From positions 1 through 64,000 of the forward strand of contig CAIJPN010000008.1 in the NCBI GenBank assembly GCA_903822545.1: a stretch of 64,000 bases of DNA, given 5' to 3'. The position numbers and the translations under genes were made by a program. Below, one piece after another: positions 37,419-55,211 of this stretch (position 1 is its first letter; each line of letters begins with the position of its first letter). Source of the DNA: an uncultured Anaerolineae bacterium (GTDB taxonomy: Bacteria; Chloroflexota; Anaerolineae; Anaerolineales; Villigracilaceae). Under the pieces are notes generated by a model. It made no database searches, was not told the origin of the DNA, and saw only the letters and a program-made list of their open reading frames with translations.

Positions 37419-38189
37419 ATGAAGAATATGGCTGAATTTGAACATAAAATCGCCCTGGTAACCGGTGGCAGCTCTGGGATTGGTCGCAGCGTGGCGGAAT
37501 TATTTGCGCGTGGCGGCGCCCGGCTGGTGGTGGCCGATGTAAACGATGATGGCGGCGCTGAAACAGTTTCCACGCTCCGCAACCTGGGGGCTGAAGCGCT
37601 GTACTTCCACGCAGATGTTTCCAGGCCAGGAGATTGCCAGGAACTGGTAGATTTCACGCTGGAAAAGTTCGGGCGGCTGGATATTGCCTGCAACAACGCC
37701 GGGATTATGGGCGAAGCCGCCCTGACCGGAGATTACAACCCGGAAGCCTGGCAGCGGGTCATCAACATCAATCTCTCTGGGGTGTTTTACTGCATGCGCT
37801 ACGAGATTCCGGCCATGCTCAAAAATGGCAGTGGGGTGATCGTGAATATGGCCTCGGTGCTGGGGCAGGCTGGCTTTGCCACCGCCCCGGCTTATGTGGC
37901 CGCCAAACACGGTGTCATCGGGCTGACGCGCACGGCGGCGCTGGAATATGCCCAGATGGGAATCCGGGTGAATGCTGTCGGGCCATCGTTTATCCACACT
38001 CCCATGCTCAATGCGGGTGGCGCTGAAGATGTGCCATACATTCACATGATGCTGGCGAATATGCACCCGGTCGGCCGCCTGGGTGAGCCCGATGAAGTGG
38101 CCGAGTTGGTAGCCTGGCTCAGTTCGGAGAAGGCTTCTTTTGTAACCGGGGCTTTTTACCCGGTGGATGGGGGGTTCCTGGCGCGCTAA
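37419..38189 (+). CDS. Short-chain dehydrogenase/reductase
   Basis: 256 residues, classical SDR. NAD(P) motif TGGSSGIGRSVAELFARGG, NNAG in IACNNAGIMGEA, catalytic Ser in MASVLGQAG, and YVAAKHGVIGLTR (YxxxK). Asp in VVADVNDDG after the second strand favours NAD over NADP. Substrate unknown. It ends overlapping the convergent methyltransferase gene by four bases, and may or may not belong with the biosynthetic operon, since it runs in the opposite direction. Confidence 0.9.
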   Translation: MKNMAEFEHKIALVTGGSSGIGRSVAELFARGGARLVVADVNDDGGAETVSTLRNLGAEALYFHADVSRPGDCQELVDFTLEKFGRLDIACNNAGIMGEAALTGDYNPEAWQRVININLSGVFYCMRYEIPAMLKNGSGVIVNMASVLGQAGFATAPAYVAAKHGVIGLTRTAALEYAQMGIRVNAVGPSFIHTPMLNAGGAEDVPYIHMMLANMHPVGRLGEPDEVAELVAWLSSEKASFVTGAFYPVDGGFLAR

Positions 38190-39181
38190 GCGCCAGCCGG
38201 TTTTTGCGCGCGAAAGACCCCGTATTCGCACAAGCCTTTGCGGAAGGCTGAATCGTACAACAAAATTGTGTAAGCATCACGTATATTACCCCACCACGCA
38301 ACCGGTTTTGACCAGCCCAGGCCATTACCATTACGCAGGGCAACAAAAATGGCTTCACGCCAGCTTGGCATGGTTGCCTGAGCCCAATCTTCTGCGTGGA
38401 TCTCTGAAAAACCGCAGCGTTCAAAAAGCTGGATGCTTTCGGGGATGGAGTCGAAACTGGTGTGACACCATTCATTCACCAGGTACTGGACATGCTTTTG
38501 TTCGGAAGCGCTCAGCGGCGCGACGAAGGGATCGCGCACATTCCAGGTGGCCACAATGACCCTGCCGCCGGGTTTGAGCAGGCGCGCCATCTCGAGCATG
38601 AAGCGCTCCTTGTCAGGCATGTGCATCTCAGATTCCAGTGACCAGATAATGTCAAAGCTCCCGGCGGCAAATGCCTGATTCATAGCATCGCATTTCAAAA
38701 AAGAAACATTCTCCAGCCCGCGTGAACGCGCCAATCTGGTCGCATAATCTGCCTGAACACCGGAAAGCGTAATGCCTGTGATCTGGACGCCCTTGCCCCA
38801 GCGCTCTGCCAGGTAAACGGCACTGCCTCCCACCCCGCAGCCCACATCCAAAATTCTGATGGGAATTGCTCCTGGTTGCGGGTTTTCCAGTTGTTGAAGA
38901 ATCGTCGGGGCAGGTTGGGCAATTCCCCAGTTCGCCAATGCATCGATCATGTCAAATTTGGCGCGGATGAAATCCTTGCGCCCGGCGGGCTGGCCGTAAA
39001 ACCCGGCATGTAGATGATTCCCCCAGTAAAATTTCATCTTCGGATCGTTGGCCCACATATCGTAGATGCCAGAAACAGAGGCTGGCCCGGTGTAAGAACG
39101 GCTGGGGTTTCTCAACAAGATCAGCACAATCACCCAGGCCAGTAACCACAAGGCGATTAAGGTGGTAATCAATTGAAGCAT
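38186..39181 (-). CDS. SAM methyltransferase, tocopherol-O-methyltransferase-like, membrane-anchored
   Basis: 331 residues. A single N-terminal membrane segment (ITTLIALWLLAWVIVLILL) is followed by a class I methyltransferase domain: motif I ILDVGCGVGGSAVYLAERWG, GITLSGVQADYATRLA, LKCDAMNQAFAAGSFDIIWS and LLKPGGRVIVATWNV. The GITLS-Q and SLES-H-D patterns are like gamma-tocopherol and related methyltransferases (also cyclopropane/sterol-type C-methyltransferases). It is the last gene of the PKS/NRPS operon, so it probably methylates the product or an intermediate at the membrane. Confidence 0.85.
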   Translation of the reverse strand: MLQLITTLIALWLLAWVIVLILLRNPSRSYTGPASVSGIYDMWANDPKMKFYWGNHLHAGFYGQPAGRKDFIRAKFDMIDALANWGIAQPAPTILQQLENPQPGAIPIRILDVGCGVGGSAVYLAERWGKGVQITGITLSGVQADYATRLARSRGLENVSFLKCDAMNQAFAAGSFDIIWSLESEMHMPDKERFMLEMARLLKPGGRVIVATWNVRDPFVAPLSASEQKHVQYLVNEWCHTSFDSIPESIQLFERCGFSEIHAEDWAQATMPSWREAIFVALRNGNGLGWSKPVAWWGNIRDAYTILLYDSAFRKGLCEYGVFRAQKPAGA

Positions 39182-39223
39182 GGGTTTGTGCTCCTTCGCT
39201 TTCGAGCTGATTATTAACGCATT

Positions 39224-39973
39224 TTACAGCGTAATTCCGCCATCTATCTGAATCACCTGCCCGGTAAGGTAAGCGGCTTTATCTGAGAGCAGGAAACAAA
39301 CCATAGGGGCGATATCTTCCACGTTCCCCAGGCGGCGCATCGAGATACGGGATTTGATGTAGCTGAGCGTATCGGGGTCAAGGATCGAGATCATATCGGT
39401 GTTGATGTAGCCGGGTGCCACAGCATTAACGCGGATGTTCTGCGGGGCAACTTCCGCCGAAAGCGATTTGGTGAAGCCAATGATCCCGGCTTTGGCGGCA
39501 GAGTAGTTGGTCTGGCCGTTGTTGCCATAAATGGCAGCAACGGAGGTAATGTTCACAATCGCGCCATTGCGCTGTTTCGCCATCTGGACAATCAGTGGTT
39601 TGGTGATGTTGAACATACTGCCCAGGTTGGTATTCAGCACGCTGTCCCACTGGCTGCGATTCATGCGCGCAAAAACAACATCGCGGGTGACTCCGGCATT
39701 GTTGACCAGCCCATCGATGGAGCCAAAATCGGCCAGCAGGTTTTTTACGGCAGCCTGGGCCGCGCCTTCATCCGAGACATCGCACTCAATGGCGATGCAG
39801 CGCTGGGACGGGTGAGTCGCGGACAGCTCAGCTGCCAATTTTTGGGCTTCGTCTGCGCTGTTGCGATAGAAGAAGGCCACATCTGCACCTTCCGCCACGG
39901 CCTCGCGGACAATACCCGCGCCAATTCCCCGGCTGCCGCCGGTGATCAAAACCTTTTTTCCCTTGAGAAGCAT
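39224..39973 (-). CDS. 3-oxoacyl-ACP reductase-like SDR (FabG type)
   Basis: 249 residues. FabG-like: TGGSRGIGAGIVREAVAEGA, NNAGVTRDVVFARM, INITSVAAIYGNNGQ, YSAAKAGIIGFTK (Tyr-Lys pair), PGYINTDM and the C-terminal TGQVIQIDGGI. It reduces 3-oxoacyl thioesters with NADPH. The PKS of the same operon has no ketoreductase domain but does have a dehydratase, so this protein is the natural candidate for a trans-acting ketoreductase. Confidence 0.9.
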   Translation of the reverse strand: MLLKGKKVLITGGSRGIGAGIVREAVAEGADVAFFYRNSADEAQKLAAELSATHPSQRCIAIECDVSDEGAAQAAVKNLLADFGSIDGLVNNAGVTRDVVFARMNRSQWDSVLNTNLGSMFNITKPLIVQMAKQRNGAIVNITSVAAIYGNNGQTNYSAAKAGIIGFTKSLSAEVAPQNIRVNAVAPGYINTDMISILDPDTLSYIKSRISMRRLGNVEDIAPMVCFLLSDKAAYLTGQVIQIDGGITL

Positions 39974-40054
39974 GAAAACCTACCTTGATTGGAATAATGA
40001 CTATGTAGGTTACGCTTGAAGCCTGACCTACCATTTGACGTGACCATAGGAGGC

Positions 40055-43000
40055 TTAAGCCTGTCCTATAAGCTCTTGGGGTGTGGGGATGAAACCAATG
40101 CCGCGCAGGTAGCGGAAGTAGGTTTCAAAGAGTTTTTCATCTGCCGGGGCGCAGGTAATGCCTGAGCCTTCGAGTGCGCGGCGCGTGTCGCGGGTATCGT
40201 AGGTGGGAAGCTGCATGCTGACCTGGTTCATATCCTCCAGGGCGGCCTGGTAGGCGAACAGGGCGTTCGATGCGAAGTCCGGGCTGGCAACCAGCCGGTC
40301 GCGCAGGTCAAGGAAGGGCATTTCATCGAACTGGTAGCCCAGGCTGCGGAGAAAGCCCAGGGCTTCGCTCATGCGGCGACGGGTTGGGTTGGTCAGGTGA
40401 AAAGCCCGCCCGATCGGTTTGCGGTTGAAGGCCAGGAAAACCATCGCTTTGGCGACATAATCCACCGGGGCGACATCCACTTCAATATCCAGCTCGGGGA
40501 AAGCCCCAAATTGCAGGAATCCCTTGAAGGAGGCCAGCAGGAAATGATCGGTAACGCAGTGACCCGTGACGCTATCCCCGCCGACTTCACCGGGGCGGTA
40601 GCGCGCGGCGGGCAGGCCGCGTTCCATGGCGTTGAGCAGAACCTTTTCGCCAACCCACTTGGCTTCATCATATCCCAGATTGAGCAAACCGTTGTGATCA
40701 ATTGGGTCGCGCTCATAGAAGGTATACTGTGCGCCCATCGGCCAGATGGCTGCGGTGGAAAGGTGGTGGACTGGCTTGATGCGCGCATGGAAGGCAAATT
40801 TGATGATCTCATGAACGCCCAGCACATTGGTGGCGCGCAGGGCTTCATACGGGTAAATAAAATTAACATGCGCCGCGCCATGGAAAATGGCGTCCACCTG
40901 GCGGGCGAGATGTTCGTACACATCATCAGGCAGGCCTATGCGCGGTAAGGTGACATCGCCCTCAACAATGTGCATCCGCGTATCCCAGGCGTGCTGCCAG
41001 GCCTCATCGCCACCCCAGACCTGGTAGTTGCGCATGCCTTTCTCGATACGCGCTTTGCAATCTTCGCCGCGTTTGGCGCGCACCAGGCAGTAAAGCTCGG
41101 CCCGGGTGGTTTTCAGGATCTCGGCCACGATGTAAGCGCCCAGGAAACCGGTGGCGCCGGTGATAAACACTGTTTTGATCTCGGATGGGCGGTAGGTGAG
41201 ACCACGAGCCGGGGCAATATAATGCGGCAACTCAGCCTCGCGGGTCAGGAAAGCCATGCGCTGGCGCGCCCATTCAGCGTCACGATAAGAAGATGGAAGC
41301 TGGCCCACCGTCACCAGGCTGCCCTGCTTTTGGCGGCGTTCATCGATCAGCGCGGAGAAGCTCTCGATGGTGGGAGCGCTGAATAGTTCGCGCAGGTTGA
41401 AAGTCACCTGGAAGCGTTTGCGGATCTCAAGCATCAGGCGCGTCATCAGCAGGGAGTGACCACCCAGGTCGATAAAATCGGAATCGCGCCCGATCAGGCC
41501 CTGGTCGATATCGAGCACGCTGGCCCAGGCTTCGGCCAAAAGGCGCTCGGTGCCCGTCCCAGGCGAGACCAGCACCCGGCTGGCCGGGGCTGCCGAAGCT
41601 GAATCAGGGCCAGGCAAGGCCGAGCGCTGGATTTTTCCATTGGCCGTCAGCGGGAAAGCCTGCAAAAACAAAACAAAGGGTGGAACCATCACTTCTGGCA
41701 GGCGCTCGCGCAAATGGGCGCGCAATTCGGCAGCCAACGGGGCAGGTTCAGCCGCAGGAATAACATGCGCCACCAATTGGGCATCCCCATGCTGGTCACG
41801 CCAGGCCGTTACCACTGCATCGCGCACACCGGGCAGGCCGCGCAAAACGCTCTCAATCTCTCCGAGTTCAACGCGCACACCATGAATCTTAACCTGATCA
41901 TCGATGCGGCCCAGGCAAATAACTTCACCATCAGCATCGTAACGGGCCAGGTCACCAGTGCGATAAATGCGTCCTTCAGGCTGGAAGGGGTCGGGCAGGA
42001 AACGTTCGGCAGTGAGTTCGGAGCGCTGCCAGTAGCCAGGAGAAACCCCCTCGCCGCCGATATACAATTCACCCACCGCGCCAATCGGCACGGGCTGGAA
42101 CTGGGCATCAAGCACGTAAAGGCGCGTGTTGGGCACGGGCCGCCCAATCCGCACCGGGCTGTTCGGCGCACTTGTCACCCGCCAATAAGCGGAATAAACT
42201 GTCGTTTCAGTGGGGCCATACAGGTTCCACAGACTGGCGCAACGCTTGAGCAATTCTTCGGCCAACTCGCGGGTCAGGGCTTCGCCGGCGCTCAGCAGGC
42301 AAATGTTTTTGTCACCAGGCCAGCCTGCCGCCAAGAGCATCTTCCAGATAGAGGGTGTAGCCTGGATGTGGGTTGGACGCTGCGCACTGATCCGTCCAGC
42401 TAACTGGATGCCATCGGCTGCCAGGCCGTCCTCGCCCACTTCCACAACACCACCCGCCATAAGCGGGATGAACAACTCAACCGTGGAAATATCAAAAGAA
42501 AAAGTGGTAAGGGCCAGCAGGTGGCTTTGGGCATTGATTTCGAGATAACCGCGCACTGCCAGCAAAAGGTTGACCAGCGCTCGGTGTTGTATTTCAACAC
42601 CTTTGGGTTTGCCGGTCGAGCCAGAAGTGAACATGATGTAAGCACCATCCAAGGCACTGGCGGGGCGCAGGTCAAGCGGCAAGCCGGCAGCATCCGCCAG
42701 TGTAGCGTCGATGCAAAGTGTCGGGGTGTCACTTTCGAGCAGCGGGAGCAGGTCGCTGGTGGTTAAAACCGTTCTGACACCGGCATCTGCCAGCATAAAA
42801 GCCAGCCGCTGGCGCGGGAAAGCCGGGTCAAGCGGGACATACAGCCCGCCCAACCGCCAAACGGCCAGCAAGGCGGGGATCAGGTCAATCGAACGCTTCA
42901 GCAGGATTCCGACCCGATCACCGCGCCGCACCCCGGAATCATACAACCGGGCTGCCAGCTGCTCACTGCGCGCTATAAGTTGACCGTAGCTGATGCTTTC

Positions 43001-44737
43001 CCGGCCAAACCGAACGGCCAACTGTCCGCTGCGCTGAAGGGCCTGGTCGCAAATCAGATCAAAAACGGTGCGCTCGGGGATGAACTTTTCGGTGCGATTC
43101 CACTGTTTGAGCACCAGCTCAAGCTCGGGCTGGGTCAACACCGGCAGCAACCCGCAGGGCCGAGAAACATCATCCAGGGCAGAATCGAGCAGGGCCAGCA
43201 TCCCGGTCAGGTAACGCGAGATGGTTGGGGCTTCGAACAATTCCGCGCTGGCGTCACAGGCCAGGCGGAGGCCAGATGTAGTTGAAATCAGTAAAAGTTC
43301 CAGGTCGTAACGCGCCCCGGCGCTGGGCGGCAGGATGAAATCGACTTGCAGGCCATCAAACAAGGGTGGGTGAGCTAAATCAATTTGGCGGAAGGCTGTT
43401 GTAAACAGGGCCGAGCGGCTCTGGTCGCGGGGCACGCGCAGGTGCTGGATCAATTCAGAAAGCGAAAAATGCCTGTGCGGGTCGGCTCCGTTCAAAAGTT
43501 CGGCCACGGTTGAGACCTGGGATGCGAAACTGCGGCTGGCATCATACCTGCCGCGAAGGGGCAGCATGTTGCGCGTGTTTGCCAGGGCTGGCAATCCACT
43601 TTCAGGATACAGCGGAGAACTCTCCACTCCGATGATCAGCTCAGGGGTTGAAGAGAGCCGCTGGAGGTAGATCATGCCGGCTGCCAGGAAAACTGCCTGG
43701 TGGCTGAATCCAGCCGATTTTGCCCAACCGGTCAGTTTCTTTTCGAGAGCGGCATCCAACGGGGTAGATTGACGAATACCCTTATATTTTTTGATTGCTG
43801 GGCGGGGGTGGTCGGCAGGGAATTCCGGGCGAGGCAGTTCACCGCCAAGTTGGGCCTGCCAGTAGTCGCGGGAAATTTCGCGGGCCTGCTGAGCGGCATG
43901 GGTTTCTCCGAGAGCCAGGTAATCGGTCCATTGCAGGCAGGCGGGGGCCGCAACAGTTTGTTCGTCGCGGGCAAATTGTCCGTATAGTTCGGCAATGGAT
44001 GTTAGTAAAAGGCCAAGGGCTTGTTGGTCGAGCAGGAGGGCGTGTCCCACCAGGGCCAGGATATGTTCATTTTCAGACAAGCGCAACAATTCAGCCCGGA
44101 AAAGGCGTTTGCCGCTCGCGAAGGGGGCAGAAACAATCTCAGTCAGGCGGCTGTCGAGCTGTGCTGCCGGAACCGGTGAAACCTGCAAATCCAGGGCTTC
44201 GCCATCGCCAATTTGGAGCGTATCGCCATCGGGGTTGAGGGCGGTGCGCAGCGCATCGAAACGATTGGCGGCTTCTTCCAGGGCGGCCTGCAAGGCAGGG
44301 CCGTGCAATTCGCCTACCATGCGAACCAGCATAACTTCGTTGAAGGCAGCGCTGGCTTCATCGGAATAACGGCTGAGAATGGCAACGTGCTGCTGGGAGG
44401 CCGCCAACGGCACGTCGCGCTGGATTTTCCACTCGCCGCGCACTGCCGAGGCCAACCGTTGTTGATTTTGGGCGTTTTTGAGTTCGTCTTCGATATACAG
44501 CGCCAGGCTGCCAATGGTAACCTGGCCTTCGATAACCCGTCGGATGGAAACCAGAACGCCAAAGCGGTCGTAAACGCGGCGCATACCTTCAACCAGTGCC
44601 AGGGAACTGATGCCCAGGTCAAGGATGGGCACATCGGTGGGCATGTACGGCAGGGTTTCGCCAAAGGCTTCAAGGATCAGCCGTTGAAGTTCTGCGCGGA
44701 TTTGGGAAGAGTCGGGATTGGTTTGTGTTGGGGTCAT
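40055..44737 (-). CDS. NRPS: carrier - C (degenerate) - A - PCP - thioester reductase
   Basis: 1560 residues from the ATG at 44737 (a GTG at 44758 is possible; neither has a clear ribosome binding site). Domains: carrier about 10-90 (LGISSL, Ser45); condensation-like about 105-520, where HHxxxDG reads GHALLLDQ with Ala at the catalytic second His; adenylation about 555-1045 with YIMFTSGSTGKPKG, NLYGPTETTVYS, YRTGDLARYDADGE and NGK; PCP about 1060-1135 (LGGHSL, Ser1095); reductase about 1187-1560 (TGATGFLG, Ser1327, YDEAK with Tyr1356/Lys1360). By alignment to GrsA, the pocket reads D-I-V-Q-L-A-L-V-Y-K, most like glycine-type codes but not certain. The reductase would release an aldehyde or alcohol. 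It follows the radical SAM gene across hairpins. Confidence 0.93.
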   Translation of the reverse strand: MTPTQTNPDSSQIRAELQRLILEAFGETLPYMPTDVPILDLGISSLALVEGMRRVYDRFGVLVSIRRVIEGQVTIGSLALYIEDELKNAQNQQRLASAVRGEWKIQRDVPLAASQQHVAILSRYSDEASAAFNEVMLVRMVGELHGPALQAALEEAANRFDALRTALNPDGDTLQIGDGEALDLQVSPVPAAQLDSRLTEIVSAPFASGKRLFRAELLRLSENEHILALVGHALLLDQQALGLLLTSIAELYGQFARDEQTVAAPACLQWTDYLALGETHAAQQAREISRDYWQAQLGGELPRPEFPADHPRPAIKKYKGIRQSTPLDAALEKKLTGWAKSAGFSHQAVFLAAGMIYLQRLSSTPELIIGVESSPLYPESGLPALANTRNMLPLRGRYDASRSFASQVSTVAELLNGADPHRHFSLSELIQHLRVPRDQSRSALFTTAFRQIDLAHPPLFDGLQVDFILPPSAGARYDLELLLISTTSGLRLACDASAELFEAPTISRYLTGMLALLDSALDDVSRPCGLLPVLTQPELELVLKQWNRTEKFIPERTVFDLICDQALQRSGQLAVRFGRESISYGQLIARSEQLAARLYDSGVRRGDRVGILLKRSIDLIPALLAVWRLGGLYVPLDPAFPRQRLAFMLADAGVRTVLTTSDLLPLLESDTPTLCIDATLADAAGLPLDLRPASALDGAYIMFTSGSTGKPKGVEIQHRALVNLLLAVRGYLEINAQSHLLALTTFSFDISTVELFIPLMAGGVVEVGEDGLAADGIQLAGRISAQRPTHIQATPSIWKMLLAAGWPGDKNICLLSAGEALTRELAEELLKRCASLWNLYGPTETTVYSAYWRVTSAPNSPVRIGRPVPNTRLYVLDAQFQPVPIGAVGELYIGGEGVSPGYWQRSELTAERFLPDPFQPEGRIYRTGDLARYDADGEVICLGRIDDQVKIHGVRVELGEIESVLRGLPGVRDAVVTAWRDQHGDAQLVAHVIPAAEPAPLAAELRAHLRERLPEVMVPPFVLFLQAFPLTANGKIQRSALPGPDSASAAPASRVLVSPGTGTERLLAEAWASVLDIDQGLIGRDSDFIDLGGHSLLMTRLMLEIRKRFQVTFNLRELFSAPTIESFSALIDERRQKQGSLVTVGQLPSSYRDAEWARQRMAFLTREAELPHYIAPARGLTYRPSEIKTVFITGATGFLGAYIVAEILKTTRAELYCLVRAKRGEDCKARIEKGMRNYQVWGGDEAWQHAWDTRMHIVEGDVTLPRIGLPDDVYEHLARQVDAIFHGAAHVNFIYPYEALRATNVLGVHEIIKFAFHARIKPVHHLSTAAIWPMGAQYTFYERDPIDHNGLLNLGYDEAKWVGEKVLLNAMERGLPAARYRPGEVGGDSVTGHCVTDHFLLASFKGFLQFGAFPELDIEVDVAPVDYVAKAMVFLAFNRKPIGRAFHLTNPTRRRMSEALGFLRSLGYQFDEMPFLDLRDRLVASPDFASNALFAYQAALEDMNQVSMQLPTYDTRDTRRALEGSGITCAPADEKLFETYFRYLRGIGFIPTPQELIGQA

Positions 44738-44788
44738 AGGGTGGGTAGGTTTTCTCACACAAAACCGCCGATGGCGGCCAGTCCAAAA

Positions 44789-44839
44789 GGCTTCGTTTTA
44801 TAGCCCGGACGTTGCGCGTCCGGGCTATAAAACGAAGCC
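44789..44839 (-). repeat. 51-base perfect hairpin between radical SAM and NRPS genes
   Basis: Two 23-base arms (GGCTTCGTTTTATAGCCCGG... and its complement) around a 5-base loop. Smaller hairpins flank it: CGCC-TAAAGA-GGCG and TTTCCC-TTC-GGGAAA to the right, GCCGCCATCGGCGG to the left. There is no U tract, so it may slow transcription, protect the upstream mRNA or be a repeat element. Confidence 0.8.
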
Positions 44840-44919
44840 GCCTAAAGAGGCGACTATTTTCCCTTCGGGAAAGCTCAAAACCTATCCTTGCAAAAAGGAG
44901 CCGAGGGATGAGTCACCAT

Positions 44920-46326
44920 TTAACCGTGGTTTTCAACCACCAGCTTCTCGCGCAGCTGCTGGTAGCGCTTTTCGGCCAGAAGGGTCTGGATGAGCGGGGT
45001 GTAGAATGGGCCATCACCAGTCAGCCGGATTTTATGAGGGGTGATTTCCACAAAGTTATATTCTTCTAGCGCCCGCCAAACCCCTTCAAATTCCTGATAA
45101 ATATCGGTATCAAAAGAACCATTGAAGCTCTCGCGGTCCAGCTCCATGCCAAACAGGTTACGCCAGATGAGCGAAATCATAAAATCCTTGCGCTCATGCT
45201 TGAAACCAACCTCGGTTGGGAACTGGCCCGCGTCAATTTTGGCTTTGTACTTGTCCAAATCGCGCTCGTTAATGAACGACCAGGAATGCCCCGGCTCGAG
45301 GGCGATATCGCTGAAGAAAGTCAGGGCAGCGTAGCCAATGCCGAGTGTATCCATGTTGTCAAAGCGGTGGGTAACGCCTTCTTCATATTTTCTTTCATAG
45401 GGATTGCCCGGTTTGCGCCAGTTGTAGGCCGTAACCTGTTCGTAGCCGTGGCTGGTCAGCAAGTCACGCGCTTCTTTGTACATTTCCAGGTTGCTGAGGG
45501 TGCTGGGCAGTTCGTGGTAGCGGTTCAAGGCAAAATCGGTCGGGCCGCCCACGTTCAGTTCGTAGTGGGTGATATCATACACACCCCAGCCGATGACTGT
45601 TTCGAGATCTTCGAGCATGGTTTTAACGGTTTGCTGGGGCCAGCCAAAAATGAGATCGACATTGGCCGCCAGCCCAAACTCGTTCGCCCATTCGATGGTC
45701 TGGATCACGTGCTGGGTCTTCTGCTTGCGTCCGCTGAAGCTGTTCAGCCGTTCATTGACCTGCTGCACGCCCATGCTGATGCGGTTCATCCCGGCTTCCT
45801 TGATGGCCTGGACTTTCTCACGGCTGAAGAGCTGCGGGATGCCTTCCAGCGTAATATCCACATACTCGGGGATGACCGGGAACAGGGAGCGCACTTGTTC
45901 CATCAACTCGTGGTATTTCTCTGGCCGGTACAGGTTGGAAGTGCCGCCTCCAAAGAATACTGCGCCGAGCGGCAGTCCGCGCAAGCCATCGCGATACATG
46001 TCAACCTCGCGTTTGAGATAATCGAAATAAATTTCCAAATCTCGATTGCCAGTGAACGCCTGCACCGGGAAAAGACAGTAACCGCATTTCCCAGGCTCGG
46101 TCTGGATGCAGTATGGCACACCCATATACAGGTTAATAGGCGCGCCCAGTCCACGGGCATGCAATTTCTGACGGTCTTCCAGCATCTGTTTGACCGGGAT
46201 TTCGGTCTCATTCCAATAGCGGGGCGACGGGAAAGCATGCTGGATCTTGTTAACCTGGCGTCTATCCAGGTTCCTTTCAATATAATCGCGAGCGTAATCC
46301 AGGTCGGCGGAAATTGTAGTAACCAT
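44920..46326 (-). CDS. HemN-like radical SAM protein with CX7CX2C cluster motif
   Basis: 468 residues. Radical SAM barrel with N-terminal YMGVPYCIQTEPGKCGYC (Cys73, Cys81, Cys84: CX7CX2C instead of HemN CX3CX2C), SAM-binding GAVFFGGGTSNLY, ISMGVQQVNERLNSFSGRKQ (HemN-like), DLIFGWPQQT and a HemN-type C-terminal domain. AAAGG precedes the ATG, 20 bases after the PKS stop. HemN-like proteins in polyketide clusters can act as C-methyltransferases or cyclopropanases with two SAM molecules; a true coproporphyrinogen dehydrogenase is less likely because of the location and changed cluster motif. Confidence 0.88.
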   Translation of the reverse strand: MVTTISADLDYARDYIERNLDRRQVNKIQHAFPSPRYWNETEIPVKQMLEDRQKLHARGLGAPINLYMGVPYCIQTEPGKCGYCLFPVQAFTGNRDLEIYFDYLKREVDMYRDGLRGLPLGAVFFGGGTSNLYRPEKYHELMEQVRSLFPVIPEYVDITLEGIPQLFSREKVQAIKEAGMNRISMGVQQVNERLNSFSGRKQKTQHVIQTIEWANEFGLAANVDLIFGWPQQTVKTMLEDLETVIGWGVYDITHYELNVGGPTDFALNRYHELPSTLSNLEMYKEARDLLTSHGYEQVTAYNWRKPGNPYERKYEEGVTHRFDNMDTLGIGYAALTFFSDIALEPGHSWSFINERDLDKYKAKIDAGQFPTEVGFKHERKDFMISLIWRNLFGMELDRESFNGSFDTDIYQEFEGVWRALEEYNFVEITPHKIRLTGDGPFYTPLIQTLLAEKRYQQLREKLVVENHG

Positions 46327-46346
46327 AGTTTTACCTTTAAGTGTGA

Positions 46347-49300
46347 TTAATCAGCCGGGGCAGCTTCAAGCTGGAGGTCTGCCGCCAGGACATCGCTGAG
46401 CAGGAATTCTGCCAGAGATTCAATGGATTGATAATCAAGGCCCTGCATGGGCTTGAAACGGAATTCGAGCTTTTCCTGGATGCGGCGCTGGAGTTCGGTT
46501 ACAAGCAGTGAATCCAGACCAATTTCAAGGAAAACAGTCGACGGCGGCAATTTTTCGATACTCAAGCTGTCAGCCGCCTGGCCCATGGTCTGCTTAATTT
46601 CAGATGTCAGCCATTTGGACAGCAGACTGACACGTTCCCTGCGCGAGAGCGGGCGCAACATATCGACCAGTTCGCCACGGGTCTTGAAAATCTGGGGCGC
46701 GCTATCCCTGGCAGCTGTCCTGGCGGTTTCCTTTCCACCCAGCGAGGTCATGCGCCGCAGTTCTAGATTTTCAATTTCCATCAACAAGGTGCCATCATCG
46801 CCAAAAACGCGCAGGTTTGCCAGTGCGGCGCGCCCATTGTTGTTGGCGCGCACCTGCACATGGCTCCAGGCCTGGGCTGGCAGGATGTGATACAGCGTCA
46901 GCGACTGGATGGCTGTTTGAACCACTGCGCCTTCCAGGCTTTTTTCGCTGAGCATGCCAAAACCTGCGCCGACGGCGTGCAGGCAGCTATCCATCAAGAT
47001 AGCGTTGCGATAGGGATCATCTTCCGGGATGGTTGGGCTGTGTGCCACGCGCCCGTAGGCTTCACCGGAGGCCGGTTTGCCGAGCCACAGTTCACGCAGG
47101 TTGGCAAAGCGTCCGCCAAAATCGAGGCCGCTGTTGCGCAAATCGTTGTAGAAAGGCCCAACTTTTAACTCAGAAACGCGCCCGGCGAGTTCAATGTTCA
47201 GGTCGGCGCGCACGCGGCTTTCCCTGGTGCCCACGATCCGGCCGCGGCAGTGGATATTGCCAGCCGAGGAAAGGGTGAAATTAGCGACATCCAGGCCGCT
47301 GGTGCCGAATTCAAGCGTCAGGGTCAGTTTACGCTCTTCTTTGTAAGAAAGCGTAAGGGCGCGTTCAAAAATCACATCCTTGAAATCCACCGGACGCCAT
47401 TCCTTGCCCGATGCGGCCGCAAAACCGCGCGCAGCCATCTCGAGATAGCCAGTGCCGGGGAAAATGGTCGATTCGAGCACACGATGGTCTGTCCACGGGA
47501 TGGTGGTGCGCACGCCGTTCTCGAAAACAATCTTTTTGGCACTGCGGCTGACCAGCTTGCCGAGTAGCGGATGCAGTTCGGGCAGGGCTGGTAGTTCTTC
47601 TTCCAGCGCACCGGGCCGGTTGATGGGGAAATCTCCGGGGGCGACATCCAGGATGCCGGTGGCGTTCAGCCAATATTTTTCGCGCCGGAACGGGTAGAGC
47701 GGCAGGGAAACCCGCTGGTAATAAGCTCCGCCAAACAGGTTTTCCATCTTGAGCGGTGCGCCGCTGACATACAAGGCGGCCAGGCTGCCCAGCAGGTTGG
47801 AAACATCATTTTTATCGCGCTTCAGCGTTGGAATGGTGTGCAAATTGGGGGCATCGAAAGCTGTCACCACAGCAGGGGTCAGCGCCGGGTGTGGGCCAAC
47901 TTCCACCAGCAACGAACAGCCAGCGTCGATTATGTTCTGCATCCCCTGGTGGAACAGTACCGCCTGGCGCACCTGCGTGCTCCAGTAAGAGGCCGGTACA
48001 TCATCCCCGAAAAATTCGCCGCTAGTGTTGGATGCAATCGGAATGCGGGGCGGGTAAACCCGCATCTCGGCGGCGGCTTTGGTCAGTTCATCGAGGATCG
48101 GCTCCATGAGTGGAGAGTGGAAGGCATGCGAAACTTCCAATTCCTTGGTCTGGCGGCCCGCAGATTGAGCCAGGTCGTCAATCGCCATGACAGCATCAGC
48201 TGTGCCAGAGACAACCACAGCGCGCGGCCCGTTGACCGTGGCGATGGAAACTTCGCTTTCGCGACCCTGAATCCACTTTTGCACCTGTTCGACAGATGCG
48301 CCAATCGCCAGCATTTTGCCACCTTCGGGCAGTTGCCCCATCAGGCGACCACGCGTAACCACAAAGCGGGCGGCATCTTCCACATCGAGCATCCCGGCCA
48401 CACAGGCAGCCACCAACTCCCCAATGCTGTGCCCAATGACGTAATCGGGTTTCAGGCCCCAAGAGTTGAGCAGTTCGGCCAGGGCATATTCAATTGCAAA
48501 CAGGGCGGGCTGCACATAACGGGTATTTTCGAGATATTCGGCTGATTTTTCACCGTAGAGCACATCCAGTAGGGGCACGCCAAGTTCAGGGTCGATCAAC
48601 TCGGCCACCTGGCGCAGGGCTTCGGCAAAACGCGGCTCATTTTCGTACAACTGGCGTCCCATGCCGGGGTATTGCGCACCCTGACCAGTGAACATAAAAG
48701 CGGTTTTGGTTTTGATGCGGGTGACAACCTGCCCGGTAGCCAATCCCTGTGGCACGCGCCCGGCGCGCCAGGCTTCCAGCTTGCGCTTGATCTCATCCTT
48801 TTCTTTGCCTACCACCGCCAGGCGATGGTGGTGCTGGGTGCGGTCAAGTGCGGCAGAATAAGTCAGGTCGCGCAGCGAGGCGGGGTGTTTGTCGAGCAGA
48901 TCCACCCATTTATCGGCCAATTCTTCCAGCGAGGCAGCCGATTTGGCAGACATGAACAACAATCCGTTTTCGCGGTCGAGCAGGCCTGCCTGCTCATCTT
49001 GCAAAACTTGTCCGTTCGCAGAAAGCGGCGCTTCCTGCAAAATGGCATGGGCATTGGTGCCGCTATAGCCAAAAGAGTTGATTCCTGCCAGGCGCGGGGC
49101 AGCCCCACGCCGCCAGGGAATGCGCTGGGTGGCAACCTGCACCGGGGCGCGGCCCAGGTTGATATTCGGATTTAATTTTGTAAAGTGGATGCTGGGGAGG
49201 ATTTCCTCGTACTGGAGCGAAAGCGCCACCTTGGCCAAACTCAACAACCCGGCGCCTGCCTCCAGGTGCCCGAAGTTGCTCTTCACTGAACCAACATACA

Positions 49301-50354
49301 GCGGATTATCCGCCAGCCGCTCGGGGCCAAAAACGTTGACAATGGCGCTCATCTCAATTGGGTCGCCGACCGGGGTGCCGGTGCCGTGCGCTTCAACGTA
49401 CTGCACATCGGTGGGGCTGACGCCCACCCGTGCCAACGCGCTGCGGATGACTTTTTCCTGCGCACGGCCATTGGGCGCAGTCAGCGCCGGGGTGTGACCA
49501 TCCTGGTTGACAGCCGTGCCAACGATGCTGGCGTAAATCCGGTCGCCGCGTTCGATGGCATCCGATTGGCGACGCAGGATGATCGCCATGCAGCCCTCGC
49601 CGCGGATATAGCCATCGGCAGAGGCATCAAAAGCAGCGCAATGCCCATTGCGAGACATCAAACCGACTTTCGAAAAAGCGATGTGCAGGCCAGGGTGAAG
49701 CATGATATTAATGCCCGCAACAATAGCCATGTCGCAATCGCCCGCCAGTATGCTTTGACGGGCGACATGCAAGGCTACCAGCGAACTGGAGCAGGCGGTA
49801 TCCAGGGTCAGGCAGGGCCCTTCGAGACCGAGAAAATGGGAGATACGCCCGGCAGAAATACTCATCGCATCACCCATGGCATCGTAACCAGTAATGCCGA
49901 GGGGGCCTTCATAAATGCCCTTTAACTGGGAATATCCGTTGGTATTCATCATCGCCAGGAACATGCCGGTGTTGCTGTGAGCCAGTTCCTCGGCAGATTG
50001 CCCGGCATCTTCCAGGGCGTGCCAGACCGTTTGCAAGATCAAGCGCTGCTGCGGGTCCATTCGGGCAGCTTCAGCGTCAGAAATGCCAAAGAAACCGGCA
50101 TCAAAGGCTTCGATATCTTCAACAAAGCTGCCTTTGCGCACGTACGTTTTCCCAGGGGTGACCGGATCAGGATCGTAGAATGCGTTCACATTCCAGCGAT
50201 TGCGCGGGACTTCGGTTACCAGGTCGCGGCCACTGCGCAATGCTTCCAGCAGCTCGGCAGTGGATGTGATGTTACCGGGAAGGGTGCAGCCAATGCCGAT
50301 CAGGGCGATTGGTTCTGCACTGGCTTTCTTGTTCTCGTTGGTTTGTAAAGTCAT
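46347..50354 (-). CDS. Type I polyketide synthase module: KS-AT-DH-ACP
   Basis: 1335 residues from the ATG at 50354 (GGAGG upstream). KS about 13-445 with intact triad: Cys188 (DTACSSS), His323 (EAHGTGT), His363 (NFGHLEA). AT about 550-850 with GHSIGE (Ser643) and HAFH (743-746), which predicts malonyl-CoA. DH about 925-1205 with His957 and D1122-x3-H1126; the HxxxGxxxxP motif has Glu for Gly (HRVLESTIFP). ACP about 1240-1325 with IGLDSL (Ser1282). There is no KR or ER domain; a FabG-like SDR in the operon may act in trans. The single module may be used once or iteratively. First gene of the minus-strand biosynthetic operon. Confidence 0.95.
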   Translation of the reverse strand: MTLQTNENKKASAEPIALIGIGCTLPGNITSTAELLEALRSGRDLVTEVPRNRWNVNAFYDPDPVTPGKTYVRKGSFVEDIEAFDAGFFGISDAEAARMDPQQRLILQTVWHALEDAGQSAEELAHSNTGMFLAMMNTNGYSQLKGIYEGPLGITGYDAMGDAMSISAGRISHFLGLEGPCLTLDTACSSSLVALHVARQSILAGDCDMAIVAGINIMLHPGLHIAFSKVGLMSRNGHCAAFDASADGYIRGEGCMAIILRRQSDAIERGDRIYASIVGTAVNQDGHTPALTAPNGRAQEKVIRSALARVGVSPTDVQYVEAHGTGTPVGDPIEMSAIVNVFGPERLADNPLYVGSVKSNFGHLEAGAGLLSLAKVALSLQYEEILPSIHFTKLNPNINLGRAPVQVATQRIPWRRGAAPRLAGINSFGYSGTNAHAILQEAPLSANGQVLQDEQAGLLDRENGLLFMSAKSAASLEELADKWVDLLDKHPASLRDLTYSAALDRTQHHHRLAVVGKEKDEIKRKLEAWRAGRVPQGLATGQVVTRIKTKTAFMFTGQGAQYPGMGRQLYENEPRFAEALRQVAELIDPELGVPLLDVLYGEKSAEYLENTRYVQPALFAIEYALAELLNSWGLKPDYVIGHSIGELVAACVAGMLDVEDAARFVVTRGRLMGQLPEGGKMLAIGASVEQVQKWIQGRESEVSIATVNGPRAVVVSGTADAVMAIDDLAQSAGRQTKELEVSHAFHSPLMEPILDELTKAAAEMRVYPPRIPIASNTSGEFFGDDVPASYWSTQVRQAVLFHQGMQNIIDAGCSLLVEVGPHPALTPAVVTAFDAPNLHTIPTLKRDKNDVSNLLGSLAALYVSGAPLKMENLFGGAYYQRVSLPLYPFRREKYWLNATGILDVAPGDFPINRPGALEEELPALPELHPLLGKLVSRSAKKIVFENGVRTTIPWTDHRVLESTIFPGTGYLEMAARGFAAASGKEWRPVDFKDVIFERALTLSYKEERKLTLTLEFGTSGLDVANFTLSSAGNIHCRGRIVGTRESRVRADLNIELAGRVSELKVGPFYNDLRNSGLDFGGRFANLRELWLGKPASGEAYGRVAHSPTIPEDDPYRNAILMDSCLHAVGAGFGMLSEKSLEGAVVQTAIQSLTLYHILPAQAWSHVQVRANNNGRAALANLRVFGDDGTLLMEIENLELRRMTSLGGKETARTAARDSAPQIFKTRGELVDMLRPLSRRERVSLLSKWLTSEIKQTMGQAADSLSIEKLPPSTVFLEIGLDSLLVTELQRRIQEKLEFRFKPMQGLDYQSIESLAEFLLSDVLAADLQLEAAPAD

Positions 50355-50846: not shown

Positions 50847-51308
50847 ATGTCTGCTGAAGATGATAATGCGAAAGTCCACGCACTGGGTCAGGAAGTTGAA
50901 TCCCAGGAAGAATCCAGGATTAAGCCAATTGTCCTGAAATACAAGAAGTTAAAGAAGAAAAAAGCCGAGGCGGCCGAAGGTGAAAGCAAAGAAAAATATT
51001 CCAAAGGCCTGGAAAATATCCAGCGGTTGGAGGGAAATGTTGTTCGAATCAGCCAGAAGGCCACCAAGGCGCTCTCAAAAGGGTTGGAAGTTTACGAGAA
51101 AGAAAGAGAAAAGTCGGCGCAGGAAAAGACCGATGGCGCGATTGAGGATTTCATCCACAATTCTGCCAAAGCAACCAGCACGTATTTGAAAGAAGCCAGC
51201 GATATTCCGCTTGATGTTGCTGATGCGGTGAGCAATTCATCTTACCGAAAGGAACTACGTAAAAACCTGCGGCGAGCATCCAAATTCCTGCGTTTGTGGC
51301 GGATATAA
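50847..51308 (+). CDS. Charged, helical (coiled-coil/phasin-like) protein, unknown function
   Basis: 153 residues, very rich in Lys and Glu, with long predicted helices (residues 20-55 and 60-110) and an amphipathic middle section with RISQKATKALSKGLEVYEKE. No signal or membrane segment. A coiled-coil or lipid-granule surface protein is possible; no family is recognised. AAGGAG precedes the ATG. It lies directly before the paired ABC1 kinases, echoing the phasin-like/ABC1 pairing at 35-37 kb. A hairpin (51328-51357) follows. Confidence 0.65.
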   Translation: MSAEDDNAKVHALGQEVESQEESRIKPIVLKYKKLKKKKAEAAEGESKEKYSKGLENIQRLEGNVVRISQKATKALSKGLEVYEKEREKSAQEKTDGAIEDFIHNSAKATSTYLKEASDIPLDVADAVSNSSYRKELRKNLRRASKFLRLWRI

Positions 51309-51368: not shown

Positions 51369-53234
51369 ATGAGAAGCGCGCAAAAGCAAGCCCCACCTGA
51401 ACTCACTGTAGACGGCAAACCGCAAGGAACGATTGCTGCCCTGCCCCGACGCGATTTTATCAAGCTCTCAAGCAATGACACCGACTTGCCGCAAATGCGC
51501 TTTGTGACGTTTGAACTAAAGCGCGCGCACGCTTTTCAACGTTTGTTCAACTGGTTTCAATTACTTTTTTATTTTTACACTCACATTTTCCTTGATAAAT
51601 TGCGCGGCCAGAACACGCCCAGGCGGCGCGCGGCACATCTCAGGCAGGCTTTTGAGCGTCAGGGGGGGGCTTTCATCAAGCTCGGCATTCACCTGGGGAT
51701 GAGAATTGACCTGATCCCATGGTATTACAGCAATGATCTTTCTTGCATGGTCGATCGGATGGCCCCTTTTGATGTGACCGAAGCAATCGCCACCATCGAA
51801 CGCTGTATCAAAAAGCCGCTCCAGTCTGTTTTTGCGCGATTTGACCCCCAACCCATCCTGTCAACATCCACAGCCTGCACCTACCAGGCTGTGCTCCACA
51901 GCGGCGAGAGAGTGGCCGTCAAAGTGCGCCGCCCGGGAATTGGTGAGCAGTTCACGGCAGATATCGAAGCTTTTGACTGGCTGCTGACCCTTGCAGAATT
52001 CCTGACCATTTTCCGCCCCGGCCTGACCAAGGGCATGCGGCAAGAATTTCGCACCCTGTTGATGGAAGAACTGGATTTTGTGCAGGAAGCGCGCCGCCAG
52101 GATGCTTTCAGGCGCGCAGCAGAAGAATCACGTAAGAATTTTTTCACCGCCCCGCGCGTTTATCTTGAATATTCGGGCGAGGAAGTTGTGGTAAACACCT
52201 TCGCAAGCGGGATGTGGCTGTGGGAACTGCTCTCAGCCATCGAGCTGGGTGATGAAACAGTGCTGGCACAGGCCCGCGCAATGAACATCGATCACCAACA
52301 GGTAGCCAAAAGGCTGATGTGGGTCAATTATTGGGCGAGAGAAGAAAACCTGTTCTTTCATGCCGACCCGAACTCGAACAACATCATTCTTGGCCGCGAT
52401 GGCACGCTTTCATTCATCAATTTCACCAGCACGGGCACACTCAGTCGCACCAAACAGCAAGCCATGCGGCAAATCTTATATTACGCCTGGCAACGCGATC
52501 CCCAAAACATGGCACGTTCATCGCTGATTTTGATGGAGCCCCTGCCACCCATCGACCTGATCAAAATGACCCAAGAATTGGAAACCTACAACTGGCAGAT
52601 GCTATATGCCATGGAGGCCACACCCGGCAGCATCGCATGGCAGGAACGCACATCTGCCATGTTGTGGATTGGAATCATCGAAATGGCGCGCAAATATGGC
52701 GTTGTCATCGATGTTGAAGTGCTGCGCCTGCTGCGCGCAACGCTCCTGCTCGAATCGATGGCAGTAAGGCTTGACCCTGACATCAACTTCATTCTGGATT
52801 ATCGCAAATTCCGCGTATATAAAGCCGAACAGGTGCGCCGGCGTGTTACCGATAAAATCCTGGATCAACTGGACGGTAAGGGCAACGAGCAGTTGATCAT
52901 CCGCGTTGACCGTATCATCCAAACGCTAGAAGGGCTGTTCAACCGAACCATCCACATGTTCACCCTGCCATCGGTCAACTTCAATGTGCTGATGAGCAAA
53001 TGGTCATTCGCAGTTTATATCGCAGTGCGGTTTTTCGCGCAATCGCTGGTAGTCACCGGGATTGCGCTGGCGGTCAGCCTGGCATTCTTGATGCTCAATC
53101 AGCAAAACCCATTCTCAATTCAAGAATTAATCACCTGGACGCTAACCAATCCGCTCTACCAGGCAGTGATCATCGTGCTGGTCTTCATCAATGGCCGGAC
53201 AGTTCTGTTCCGCATGGATGACAAAGAGGTCTGA
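51369..53234 (+). CDS. ABC1/UbiB-family pseudokinase-like protein
   Basis: 621 residues, ABC1 domain about 85-400 and two C-terminal membrane segments (about 545-568, 590-610). Key positions are altered: KxGQ is KLGI (104-107), the Ala-rich loop is LSTSTACTYQA, HADPHPGN is HADPNSNN (331-338), and the metal DFG is NFT (351-353). Lys185 (RVAVKVRRP) and the Asp333 of HADP remain. The loss of the DFG Asp makes normal catalysis doubtful. It overlaps the next, normal ABC1 gene by one base (TGATG), so the two are translated together and may form an active/pseudo pair. The start has no obvious ribosome binding site. Confidence 0.88.
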   Translation: MRSAQKQAPPELTVDGKPQGTIAALPRRDFIKLSSNDTDLPQMRFVTFELKRAHAFQRLFNWFQLLFYFYTHIFLDKLRGQNTPRRRAAHLRQAFERQGGAFIKLGIHLGMRIDLIPWYYSNDLSCMVDRMAPFDVTEAIATIERCIKKPLQSVFARFDPQPILSTSTACTYQAVLHSGERVAVKVRRPGIGEQFTADIEAFDWLLTLAEFLTIFRPGLTKGMRQEFRTLLMEELDFVQEARRQDAFRRAAEESRKNFFTAPRVYLEYSGEEVVVNTFASGMWLWELLSAIELGDETVLAQARAMNIDHQQVAKRLMWVNYWAREENLFFHADPNSNNIILGRDGTLSFINFTSTGTLSRTKQQAMRQILYYAWQRDPQNMARSSLILMEPLPPIDLIKMTQELETYNWQMLYAMEATPGSIAWQERTSAMLWIGIIEMARKYGVVIDVEVLRLLRATLLLESMAVRLDPDINFILDYRKFRVYKAEQVRRRVTDKILDQLDGKGNEQLIIRVDRIIQTLEGLFNRTIHMFTLPSVNFNVLMSKWSFAVYIAVRFFAQSLVVTGIALAVSLAFLMLNQQNPFSIQELITWTLTNPLYQAVIIVLVFINGRTVLFRMDDKEV

Positions 53235-55168
53235 TGGCACTGACGCAAACCCCGGCAGGTTTAAAACATCCACAAATACGCCGCAAAGTCGCCGAGGCTG
53301 TCAGCGCGTGGAAACAACAACGCCAGGCCGCCGCAGCAGCCCTGGCGCAGCGAGAAACCCTGTCGCTGGATGAAGTCTTGCAGAGCCTGCCTCGCCGCGA
53401 ACAAATGCCCCAGCGCGATGAACGGCAGTTATGGCTGCCTTTTATCGAGCCGATGCACTTCAAGGTGAGCAAACTGCGCAGCATTATCCGCCTGTTCAGT
53501 TGGTTCAACCTGCTGGCGACCATCCTGCTGGGAACCCTGTTCGACCAGATCCTGCGGCGCGACACAGTGGAACGGCGCGCAATCCGTTTGCGCCAGGCGC
53601 TCGAAAAAGCGGGTGGCACCTTTGTCAAACTGGGACAACAGATCGCCATGCGCATCGACCTGGTACCCTGGGCATACTGTGTGGAACTGTCCAAAATGCT
53701 TGATCGCATGGTGCCATTCCCAGCTGAGCAAGCCCTGGCCGCCATCGAAAGAACCATCAAACGCCCCTGGCAGGAAGTCTTCGAGGTCTTTGACCCCAAA
53801 GCCATCGGTTCGGCCTCGATTGCCTGTGTCTACCAGGCTGTGCTAAAAGATGGCACCAAAGTTGTGGTCAAGATCCGTCGGCCAGGCATCGCCGAATTGT
53901 TCAGGGCCGACCTGCAAGTGCTGGACTGGCTGGCAGGAATAGGGGAATTCCTGACCATCATCCGCCCCGGGTTTACGCGCAACCTGCGAATTGAACTGCG
54001 CGAACTCCTGCTGGAAGAGCTGGATTTTCGCCGCGAAGGCCGTTTCCAGGATATTTTCCGCCGCAACGCCGGGAAATCTGGCAAAGATTTTTTCACCGCC
54101 CCCCAGGTTTACTTCGACCTATCGGGAGACGAGGTGCTGGTGCAAGAATTCGTCTCAGGATTGTGGCTATGGGAAGTGATCGCACTGGTAGAACAGAACA
54201 CAGCCCAGGGACGTGCCCTGCTCAAACAGTTGAACATCGACCCTGGCATCGTTGCCCGGCGCATCCTGTGGGCTGCTTTTTGGAGCATGGATGAGCACGT
54301 TTTCTTCCACGCTGATCCGCATCCGGCCAACATCCTGGTGCGCCCCAACAACCAGGTCACTTTCATCGATTTTGGCAGCTGCGGCAGCTTCAACAACCAA
54401 CAAAAAGTCGCTCTGGAACAAATGGTTTTAAGTATGCGAGACCAGGATGTAGAATCGATGACACGCGCCTCCCTGGCCCTAATGGAACCACTCCCCCCGG
54501 TGGATGTTCCCAACCTGGTAAAACAGGCCCAAAATGAATACATGCGCGTCCTGCACACCTTCAACACCCCGGCCAAATACACCCAATACTGGGAACGCAC
54601 CTCCGCCCGTCAGTGGTTTGTGCTGATTCGCGTTTCGCAAAAGTTCAACCTGCCCATGAACCTGCACATGCTGCATATGATCCGCGCCACCCTGCTCTAC
54701 GACTCCATCGTGCTGCGTCTCGATAACCAGCTGGATCGCTATTATGAATATACACAATTTATGAAAGATCGCGCCAACCTGGTCAAAGACAAGTGGCGCG
54801 AAAAGCTCAAAGAGAATAGTGGCGATGGATTCTTCCTCAATATCGAAGAAATCAGCAAGAGTTTCAATGATTTAATGATCCGCACTCAAACAGTGCTGGG
54901 CCAACCGCTGGTACACATCGGTTCAACCGTGGATAAATGGATCTTTGCCATCAGCGTGATAAGCCGCATGGTCGGGCGCATCCTGTTACTGACCATCCTG
55001 GGGATTGCGCTGGCCGATATTATCCTGGTTCTCAACCAGCAGCCGGTTTCGGCTTCCATCATCTTCAACACAGTTATCCAGAACAAGTTCTATCAAATTT
55101 TCATTATCGCGGCTGTAATCCTCAACATCAGGCACATTCTCTTCCGCCTGAGAGATCTGGATCGATAA
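53234..55168 (+). CDS. ABC1/UbiB-family kinase, canonical
   Basis: 644 residues. N-terminal helical extension of about 110 residues, then intact ABC1 motifs: VKLGQQIAMR (KxGQ, 132-135), AIGSASIACVYQAVLKDG, VVVKIRRPG, FFHADPHPANILV and VTFIDFGSCGSF. Two membrane segments near the C-terminus (about 575-600, 612-632). Together with the degenerate paralogue upstream it probably acts at the membrane on lipid or quinone metabolism. The role relative to the divergent PKS/NRPS operon is inferred from position only. Confidence 0.92.
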   Translation: MALTQTPAGLKHPQIRRKVAEAVSAWKQQRQAAAAALAQRETLSLDEVLQSLPRREQMPQRDERQLWLPFIEPMHFKVSKLRSIIRLFSWFNLLATILLGTLFDQILRRDTVERRAIRLRQALEKAGGTFVKLGQQIAMRIDLVPWAYCVELSKMLDRMVPFPAEQALAAIERTIKRPWQEVFEVFDPKAIGSASIACVYQAVLKDGTKVVVKIRRPGIAELFRADLQVLDWLAGIGEFLTIIRPGFTRNLRIELRELLLEELDFRREGRFQDIFRRNAGKSGKDFFTAPQVYFDLSGDEVLVQEFVSGLWLWEVIALVEQNTAQGRALLKQLNIDPGIVARRILWAAFWSMDEHVFFHADPHPANILVRPNNQVTFIDFGSCGSFNNQQKVALEQMVLSMRDQDVESMTRASLALMEPLPPVDVPNLVKQAQNEYMRVLHTFNTPAKYTQYWERTSARQWFVLIRVSQKFNLPMNLHMLHMIRATLLYDSIVLRLDNQLDRYYEYTQFMKDRANLVKDKWREKLKENSGDGFFLNIEEISKSFNDLMIRTQTVLGQPLVHIGSTVDKWIFAISVISRMVGRILLLTILGIALADIILVLNQQPVSASIIFNTVIQNKFYQIFIIAAVILNIRHILFRLRDLDR

Positions 55169-55211
55169 AATTTTAATCGTTTACCCGCTATTTAAATTTT
55201 TGGAGGCAGGT

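Follow-up and report, generated by a model that had tools for sequence, protein, structure and literature searches.

A predicted polycyclopropanating iterative polyketide synthase with a nonribosomal reductive release arm in a Villigracilaceae (Chloroflexota) genome

The window analyzed here is a 64,000-nucleotide stretch (contig CAIJPN010000008.1, positions 1 to 64,000, assembly GCA_903822545.1) from an uncultured Anaerolineae bacterium of the Villigracilaceae, and five minus-strand open reading frames (ORFs) in it very probably encode a polycyclopropanating iterative polyketide synthase (PKS) coupled to a one-module nonribosomal peptide synthetase (NRPS) with reductive release. In reading order, they specify an iterative type I PKS with ketosynthase (KS), acyltransferase (AT), dehydratase (DH), and acyl carrier protein (ACP) domains (46347..50354); a HemN-like radical S-adenosylmethionine (SAM) protein, the predicted cyclopropanase (CP; 44920..46326); an NRPS with ACP, condensation (C), adenylation (A), peptidyl carrier protein (PCP), and reductase (R) domains (40055..44737); a short-chain dehydrogenase/reductase (SDR), FabG-like by Pfam and NCBIfam, the putative trans-acting ketoreductase (KR; 39224..39973); and an accessory class I methyltransferase by Pfam with a hydrophobic N-terminal segment (38186..39181). 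The ORF list of the window and Pfam left the genes, domains, and coordinates of the original prediction essentially intact, and its outer end, 50354, is the in-frame ATG that we consider a likelier PKS start than the GTG at 50414 reached by the longest ORF, because the KS domain begins 13 residues downstream, the same spacing as in the related loci L006, L008, and L012 when measured from their ORF starts (loci from the genome scan below are given L numbers); the starts in L007 and L009 lie further upstream of KS. The NRPS ORF extends to a GTG at 44758, and its sequence and comparison with L006 make the ATG at 44737 the more likely start. Spacings of 20, 182, 81, and 42 bp between the five genes fit a single predicted operon, and KS, AT, ACP, KR, A, both carriers, and R have kept their catalytic motifs. 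The highest-scoring promoter-like sequence in this region (11/12 match) lies at 50510-50482, and promoter-like sites (10 versus 8.1 expected) and terminator-like sites (18 versus 17.0 expected) occur at chance level.

Jawsamycin is an antifungal whose fatty chain bears multiple three-membered carbon rings, and the core of the window cluster resembles that of its pathway. By Pfam, the PKS has the order KS-AT-DH-ACP and lacks both KR and enoylreductase (ER) domains. Its AT carries an HAFH motif, which we take to denote malonyl specificity, in line with the malonyl extension proposed earlier. The ketoreduction in trans that had also been proposed agrees with this absence of an internal KR and with the stand-alone SDR, which has the S-Y-K motif and is 48-56% identical to the SDR following CP in 18 actinobacterial loci; a stand-alone KR of the polycyclopropanating iterative PKS (POP-iPKS) type is therefore in the cluster. 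A KS-AT-DH-ACP iterative PKS, a CP, and a KR constitute the POP-iPKS core described in PMC13389473, and a Cx7CxxC motif, stated for Jaw5, is given there as invariant in CP. The window thus shares with the fuelimycin (pfl1-4), jawsamycin (jaw4-6), and log1-4 clusters (PMC13389473) the PKS architecture, a Cx7CxxC cyclopropanase, and a stand-alone ketoreductase. It differs from them in its Chloroflexota host and in a pair of UbiB proteins alongside. The loci L024 and L019, assigned to Pfl and Log by strain and species names and PKS-CP-KR order rather than by accession matching, have the same PKS-CP-KR strand order and fall into one clade with the window for both CP and KS. In a KS tree of 35 rows, the window KS lies inside a 29-row clade (support 100/100) with the Streptomyces albireticuli and S. 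longispororuber loci; the next-best PKS match in its own genome is 31% identical.

The CP protein was nearest to the ChuW/HutW, STM4012, and HemW/HemN models of NCBIfam, all below their cut-offs, and no named equivalog scored above cut-off. A protein search of plasmid records with the window CP gave 401 records; among the best 40, which were listed, two Deinococcus plasmids lead at 43-44% identity and the following 38 stand at 22-28%. An alignment of the window CP with the two Deinococcus proteins, used as the query for a scan of a genome collection, gave 33 loci, including those of S. albireticuli NRRL B1670, S. longispororuber, S. klenkii, and Streptantibioticus ferralitis. The window CP is 59-62% identical to these four (58.9% for S. 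albireticuli NRRL B1670 and 61.7% for S. longispororuber); the first is the fuelimycin strain, and cyclopropanases of the other three species have been tested (PMC13389473). The window protein reads C73-x7-C81-xx-C84. Counted on tblastn extracts of the loci, Cx7CxxC occurs in 37/37 CP-type rows (31 of the POP clade, L024 and L019 included, and six looser relatives), whereas the outgroups have CxxxCxxC and none of the four has Cx7CxxC. A CP tree of 41 rows places the window in the 31-row clade (support 91/95) with 18 actinobacterial rows, the Jaw5 sequence itself not being among the rows; its root is unsure because the outgroup branches are very long. Outside the clade are six looser rows (the two Deinococcus proteins, Nocardia takedensis, two metagenome-assembled genomes (MAGs), and a second copy in L015) and, apart from these, the outgroups: ChuW, STM4012-type, and own-genome proteins. 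A Nonomuraea hit (L005) served as an outgroup only; it groups with an annotated STM4012 protein.

The original prediction called clusters of this size uncommon in Anaerolineae-type genomes, and for this cluster rarity is supported. The next CP-like protein of its own genome is 28-29% identical, matches at E<=1e-40 were found in 1/400 sampled Chloroflexota genomes, namely the own genome, and matches at E<=1e-60 in 5/152 genomes of the window's family; no CP relatives were found in viral contigs. An apparent PKS-CP fusion in L028 was rejected because Pfam gives its 1943-residue ORF only a radical SAM domain, with the KS-AT-DH matches located in a different reading frame. The Rhodobacter MAG locus L015 has two CP-like genes (1847-3247 and 9983-11446; 44% and 65% identical to the window CP) and no KR hit. 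Judged by gene set, Cx7CxxC motif, and the CP and KS clades, the core of the operon belongs with the POP-iPKSs, so the earlier statement that the operon matches no known pathway does not hold for PKS, CP, and KR, which correspond to the jawsamycin/fuelimycin core. Since the core is of this type, the radical SAM enzyme most likely carries out cyclopropanation repeatedly.

The NRPS release arm is the new part relative to known POP-iPKS clusters. Downstream of CP and ahead of KR, the window has a same-strand gene with A and R domains, and so do 10/30 related loci of the CP clade, namely eight from Chloroflexota (L006-L013), one from Planctomycetota (L025), and one from Labilibaculum (Bacteroidota; L029); none of the 18 actinobacterial loci has an NRPS there. 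Its recurrence in 10 other loci argues that the PKS-CP-NRPS combination is not due to chance. The distance between CP and KR is 4.7-6.2 kb in the nine NRPS loci with a KR hit, and the contig of L011 ends before any KR. In the other 20 of the 30 loci, no same-strand A or R domain was found in the 2.5-10 kb downstream of CP, and in the 19 of these with a KR hit CP and KR are only 59-199 bp apart, so that the slot between them is empty. An NRPS on the opposite strand of L027, approximately 6 kb beyond CP, we take to be unrelated to the release arm. Pfl and Log release their products by a thioesterase, and Jaw has no such gene (PMC13389473). The window has the ACP-C-A-PCP-R gene instead, and Pfam found no stand-alone thioesterase in the operon; nor did it confirm the thioesterases of L024 and L019 in the ORFs selected there. 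In the literature covered, mostly open-access papers and without a 2022 POP paper, we found no report of an NRPS-containing POP cluster or of one from Chloroflexota, and the main text of PMC13389473 does not contain "NRPS", "nonribosomal", or "Chloroflex".

The carrier Ser and the A and R motifs are conserved across the NRPS loci where covered. The R domain of the window has GxxGxxG and YxxxK motifs, as in the redox-competent type, and its nearest solved relative is MxaA of myxalamid (E 4e-79), whose pathway has a modular PKS and is not known to include a HemN-like cyclopropanase. The myxalamid R domain is listed among the NRPS reductases shown to yield alcohols (PMC2835699), and the Tyr missing from Dieckmann-type R* domains (PMC8949500) is present in the window. 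Reductive release, as originally predicted, is supported by these intact motifs and by MxaA as the nearest relative. The pocket code of the A domain, with positions that we assigned from motifs, reads DIVQLALVYK. The pattern DI-x-Q-x-[AT]-[LM]-[VI]-[YF]-K is found in 11/11 sequences, with D, I, Q, and K constant, and we take the similar DILQLGLIWK to be a glycine code. Because the R domain is nearest to an alcohol-forming reductase and the A code is glycine-like, we predict a product in which a polycyclopropyl acyl chain is amide-linked to an amino alcohol (or aldehyde).

Three plus-strand genes lie upstream of the PKS and diverge from it: a 153-residue charged protein (50847..51308; weak DUF6312 match, below the Pfam cut-off) and two ABC1/UbiB proteins with hydrophobic C-terminal segments, UbiB1 (51369..53234) and UbiB2 (53234..55168), both with a Pfam ABC1 domain, a pair that the original prediction did not mention. 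UbiB2 is canonical, with KxGQ (KLGQQ) and DFG (FIDFG), whereas UbiB1 is degenerate, with KxGI (KLGIHL) and NFT (FINFT). The 153-residue protein (54-66% identity) and both UbiB proteins (60-71%) recur in 6/6 other Chloroflexota loci extending that far, L011 and L013 being too short; UbiB1 of L008 is split. The nearest solved structures are ABC1/COQ8 proteins, and both UbiB proteins match, below the NCBIfam cut-off, MABP-1, a macrolide-binding ATPase of the same family, so that contact of the UbiB family with polyketides would not be unprecedented. The role in membrane extraction proposed below is modeled on COQ8.

These observations suggest the following pathway, each chemical step of which we derive from homology. 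The PKS would add malonyl units, and the separate KR and internal DH would convert each unit to a trans-enoyl thioester on the ACP. CP would spend two SAM molecules, one providing the 5'-deoxyadenosyl radical and one the methylene carbon, to cyclopropanate the enoyl double bond, and repetition over the cycles would give a chain of cyclopropanes. The chain may move to the N-terminal carrier of the NRPS, where the C domain would couple one small amino acid, with glycine as the best guess, activated by the A domain. The R domain with NADPH would free the amino alcohol amide (of the N-acyl ethanolamine type if the residue is glycine) or the aldehyde. Tailoring may be carried out by the methyltransferase in the window and by a P450 or flavoenzyme in relatives. 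At the membrane, extraction or trafficking of the product, which would be very hydrophobic, is probably the task of the divergent UbiB/ABC1 pair.

The sequence itself shows the genes and their motifs, the clade placement, the conserved gene order, and the joint occurrence of UbiB and CP, but substrate, ring number, and UbiB role are our own extrapolation. Least secure are the identity of the amino acid, the condition of the C domain, the ring number, and the UbiB role. Several points weigh against a polycyclopropanating PKS with NRPS-dependent reductive release. The pathway is a prediction from genes, and sequence does not give the number of rings. The DH domain retains its His and Asp, but the G expected in HxxxGxxxxP is replaced by E; at this position some relatives have D, E, or N and others G. 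A perfect 23-bp inverted repeat with a 5-nt loop (44789..44839), a possible attenuator or insertion, occupies the 182-bp gap between CP and NRPS. The 165-nt fold around it is 7 SD below shuffles, and its only matches in the own genome are itself and one 47-bp partial match (87%) on another contig; by ORF coordinates, this gap is shorter elsewhere (11-30 bp in L007, L009-L012, and L029; 76-115 bp in L006, L013, and L025). The order of Protein Data Bank (PDB) hits for the A domain gives glycine no support; LgrA was dropped as a pointer to glycine because its rank sums two A domains, the best single stretch being 4zxh. The glycine-like residue of the original prediction is thus plausible from the pocket code and finds no backing in the hit order, and glycine is only the best guess because the code is one we presume, the positions are self-mapped, and the PDB order is unhelpful. 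The C domain is atypical: where Txo1 reads HHIVSDG, it reads GHALLLD, so that the first His of the canonical HHxxxDG is lost and D is replaced by L/I. This would suit a scheme in which the C domain joins no amino acid and the R domain reduces the chain it receives, giving polycyclopropanated fatty aldehydes or alcohols; we judge this unlikely, however, as the second His is retained in 11/11 sequences, and three phyla share conserved A and PCP motifs and a conserved pocket.

Another point against the scheme is that Cx7CxxC occurs in the six looser relatives too, so the POP clade has no exclusive claim to the motif. The radical SAM step can also be read in other ways. The class C relatives ChuW/HutW and NocN are named methyltransferases, which would fit a methylase or a former of single rings. 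We nevertheless consider such an activity improbable: identity to the ChuW protein tested is just 27%, that protein does not have Cx7CxxC, and it branches far from the POP clade, and the window CP groups with enzymes whose loci are reported to form several rings (PMC13389473). The operon contains both a HemN-like enzyme and a methyltransferase, the two kinds that are paired in the CC-1065 pathway as C10P and C10Q (PMC6050322), where cyclopropane likewise arises from a SAM-derived methylene. A two-component cyclopropanase of this kind is nonetheless highly unlikely here, because POP cyclopropanation is described with iterative PKS, CP, KR, and thioesterase alone (PMC13389473), and the methyltransferase was not found in the available flanks of L007, L008, L012, and L013. 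Orthologs (60-63%) are present in L006, L009, and L010, that is, in 3/7 other Chloroflexota loci reaching that far (L011 is too short), and on this gene content a C10Q-like role was rejected. C10P requires C10Q and acts on the pyrrole of a nearly finished scaffold (PMC6050322), whereas the window methyltransferase seems dispensable. The UbiB pair probably belongs to the cluster. UbiB proteins are common, however, and outside Chloroflexota no such pair turned up close to a POP core: it was not found in the available flanks of L025, a further point against our scheme, and the upstream sequence of L029 is too short for a decision. An ABC1 gene lies directly downstream of KR in L028 of Actinacidiphila yanglinensis (12940-14451), a distant relative in 1/18 actinobacterial POP-type loci. 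The pair might thus be a mere genomic neighbor, which we find doubtful. UbiB2 orthologs at E<=1e-100 occur in the same 5/152 family genomes as CP, each with both paralogs, and these span 4/26 genera of the family, at least three of which have listed members with neither CP nor the UbiB pair; in one of the five genomes, CP and UbiB are on different contigs. Among the 400 sampled Chloroflexota genomes, CP and UbiB were each found in the own genome only. By our arithmetic, such a 5-with-5 coincidence in 152 genomes has a chance near 2e-9 if independent, which is only indicative because the genomes are related, and some of the five genomes probably correspond to the assemblies of L006 and L009-L011, so that this count overlaps with the 6/6 loci above.

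Taken together, we tentatively propose that some Chloroflexota, a Planctomycetota lineage, and a Bacteroidota lineage make a new class of polycyclopropanated lipids, N-acyl amino alcohols with ethanolamine-type heads, released by an NRPS reductase, and that the Chloroflexota among them use a dedicated pair of UbiB proteins, an active and a degenerate one, to lift the rigid product from the membrane. If true, the UbiB family gains a role in natural-product handling; the association itself offers a testable case for UbiB-family action on hydrophobic products. By assembly labels, the POP core extends to five more phyla (Chloroflexota, Planctomycetota, Bacteroidota, Acidobacteriota, and Pseudomonadota), with binning errors possible because the loci are mostly from MAGs. 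POP-iPKS pathways are the sole known source of molecules bearing more than two cyclopropanes, Streptomyces-type POP clusters have been studied as dense-fuel sources, and divergent non-Streptomyces cyclopropanases are advised as a priority (PMC13389473). Replacement of the thioesterase by an amino-acid-adding reductive exit would provide a ready engineering part.

The Deinococcus plasmid clusters (L003/L061 and L004) likewise have a CP homolog (43-44%, with Cx7CxxC) beside a PKS, an A domain, and a thioester reductase. The cluster of the Deinococcus sp. QL22 plasmid (L061, 3723-22824) differs in that its PKS is fully reducing (KS-AT-DH-ER-KR-ACP), that it has an aminotransferase and a gene for a C-A-nitroreductase protein, and that its CP falls outside the POP clade; it also encodes a PCP-thioester reductase, a GNAT protein, a ketoacyl-ACP synthase III, and an ACP, and by gene content it is a sister type of cyclopropanase-like pathway. 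In a Planctomycetota MAG (L036, 11564-15679), a C-A-PCP-nitroreductase NRPS gene lies directly downstream of a 44% CP homolog. L014 is a 6.7-kb Acidobacteria contig in which the PKS leaves one end and resumes at the other, as if circular or in tandem copies.

Accessory genes vary among the Chloroflexota loci, which suggests that the methyltransferase acts in tailoring and not in cyclopropanation as in C10P/C10Q. Among the seven loci reaching far enough, a P450 is found in L007, L009, L010, and L012, and a halogenase-like flavoenzyme in L006, L007, L008, and L013; L025 and L029 have an epimerase-like SDR downstream. Downstream of UbiB2, a plus-strand FHA-ABC transporter by Pfam (55200..58556) is a candidate exporter with a weaker association: copies at least 68% identical are found in the five CP genomes alone, but its value as a specific cluster marker is weakened, since 40/150 family genomes have such a transporter. 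A 122-residue ORF at 58586-58954 looks truncated, its start being 34% identical to the N-terminal portion of a phosphopantetheinyl transferase; three ACPS-family matches lie elsewhere in the own genome. A selenocysteine tRNA is predicted at 1932-2026 of the window.

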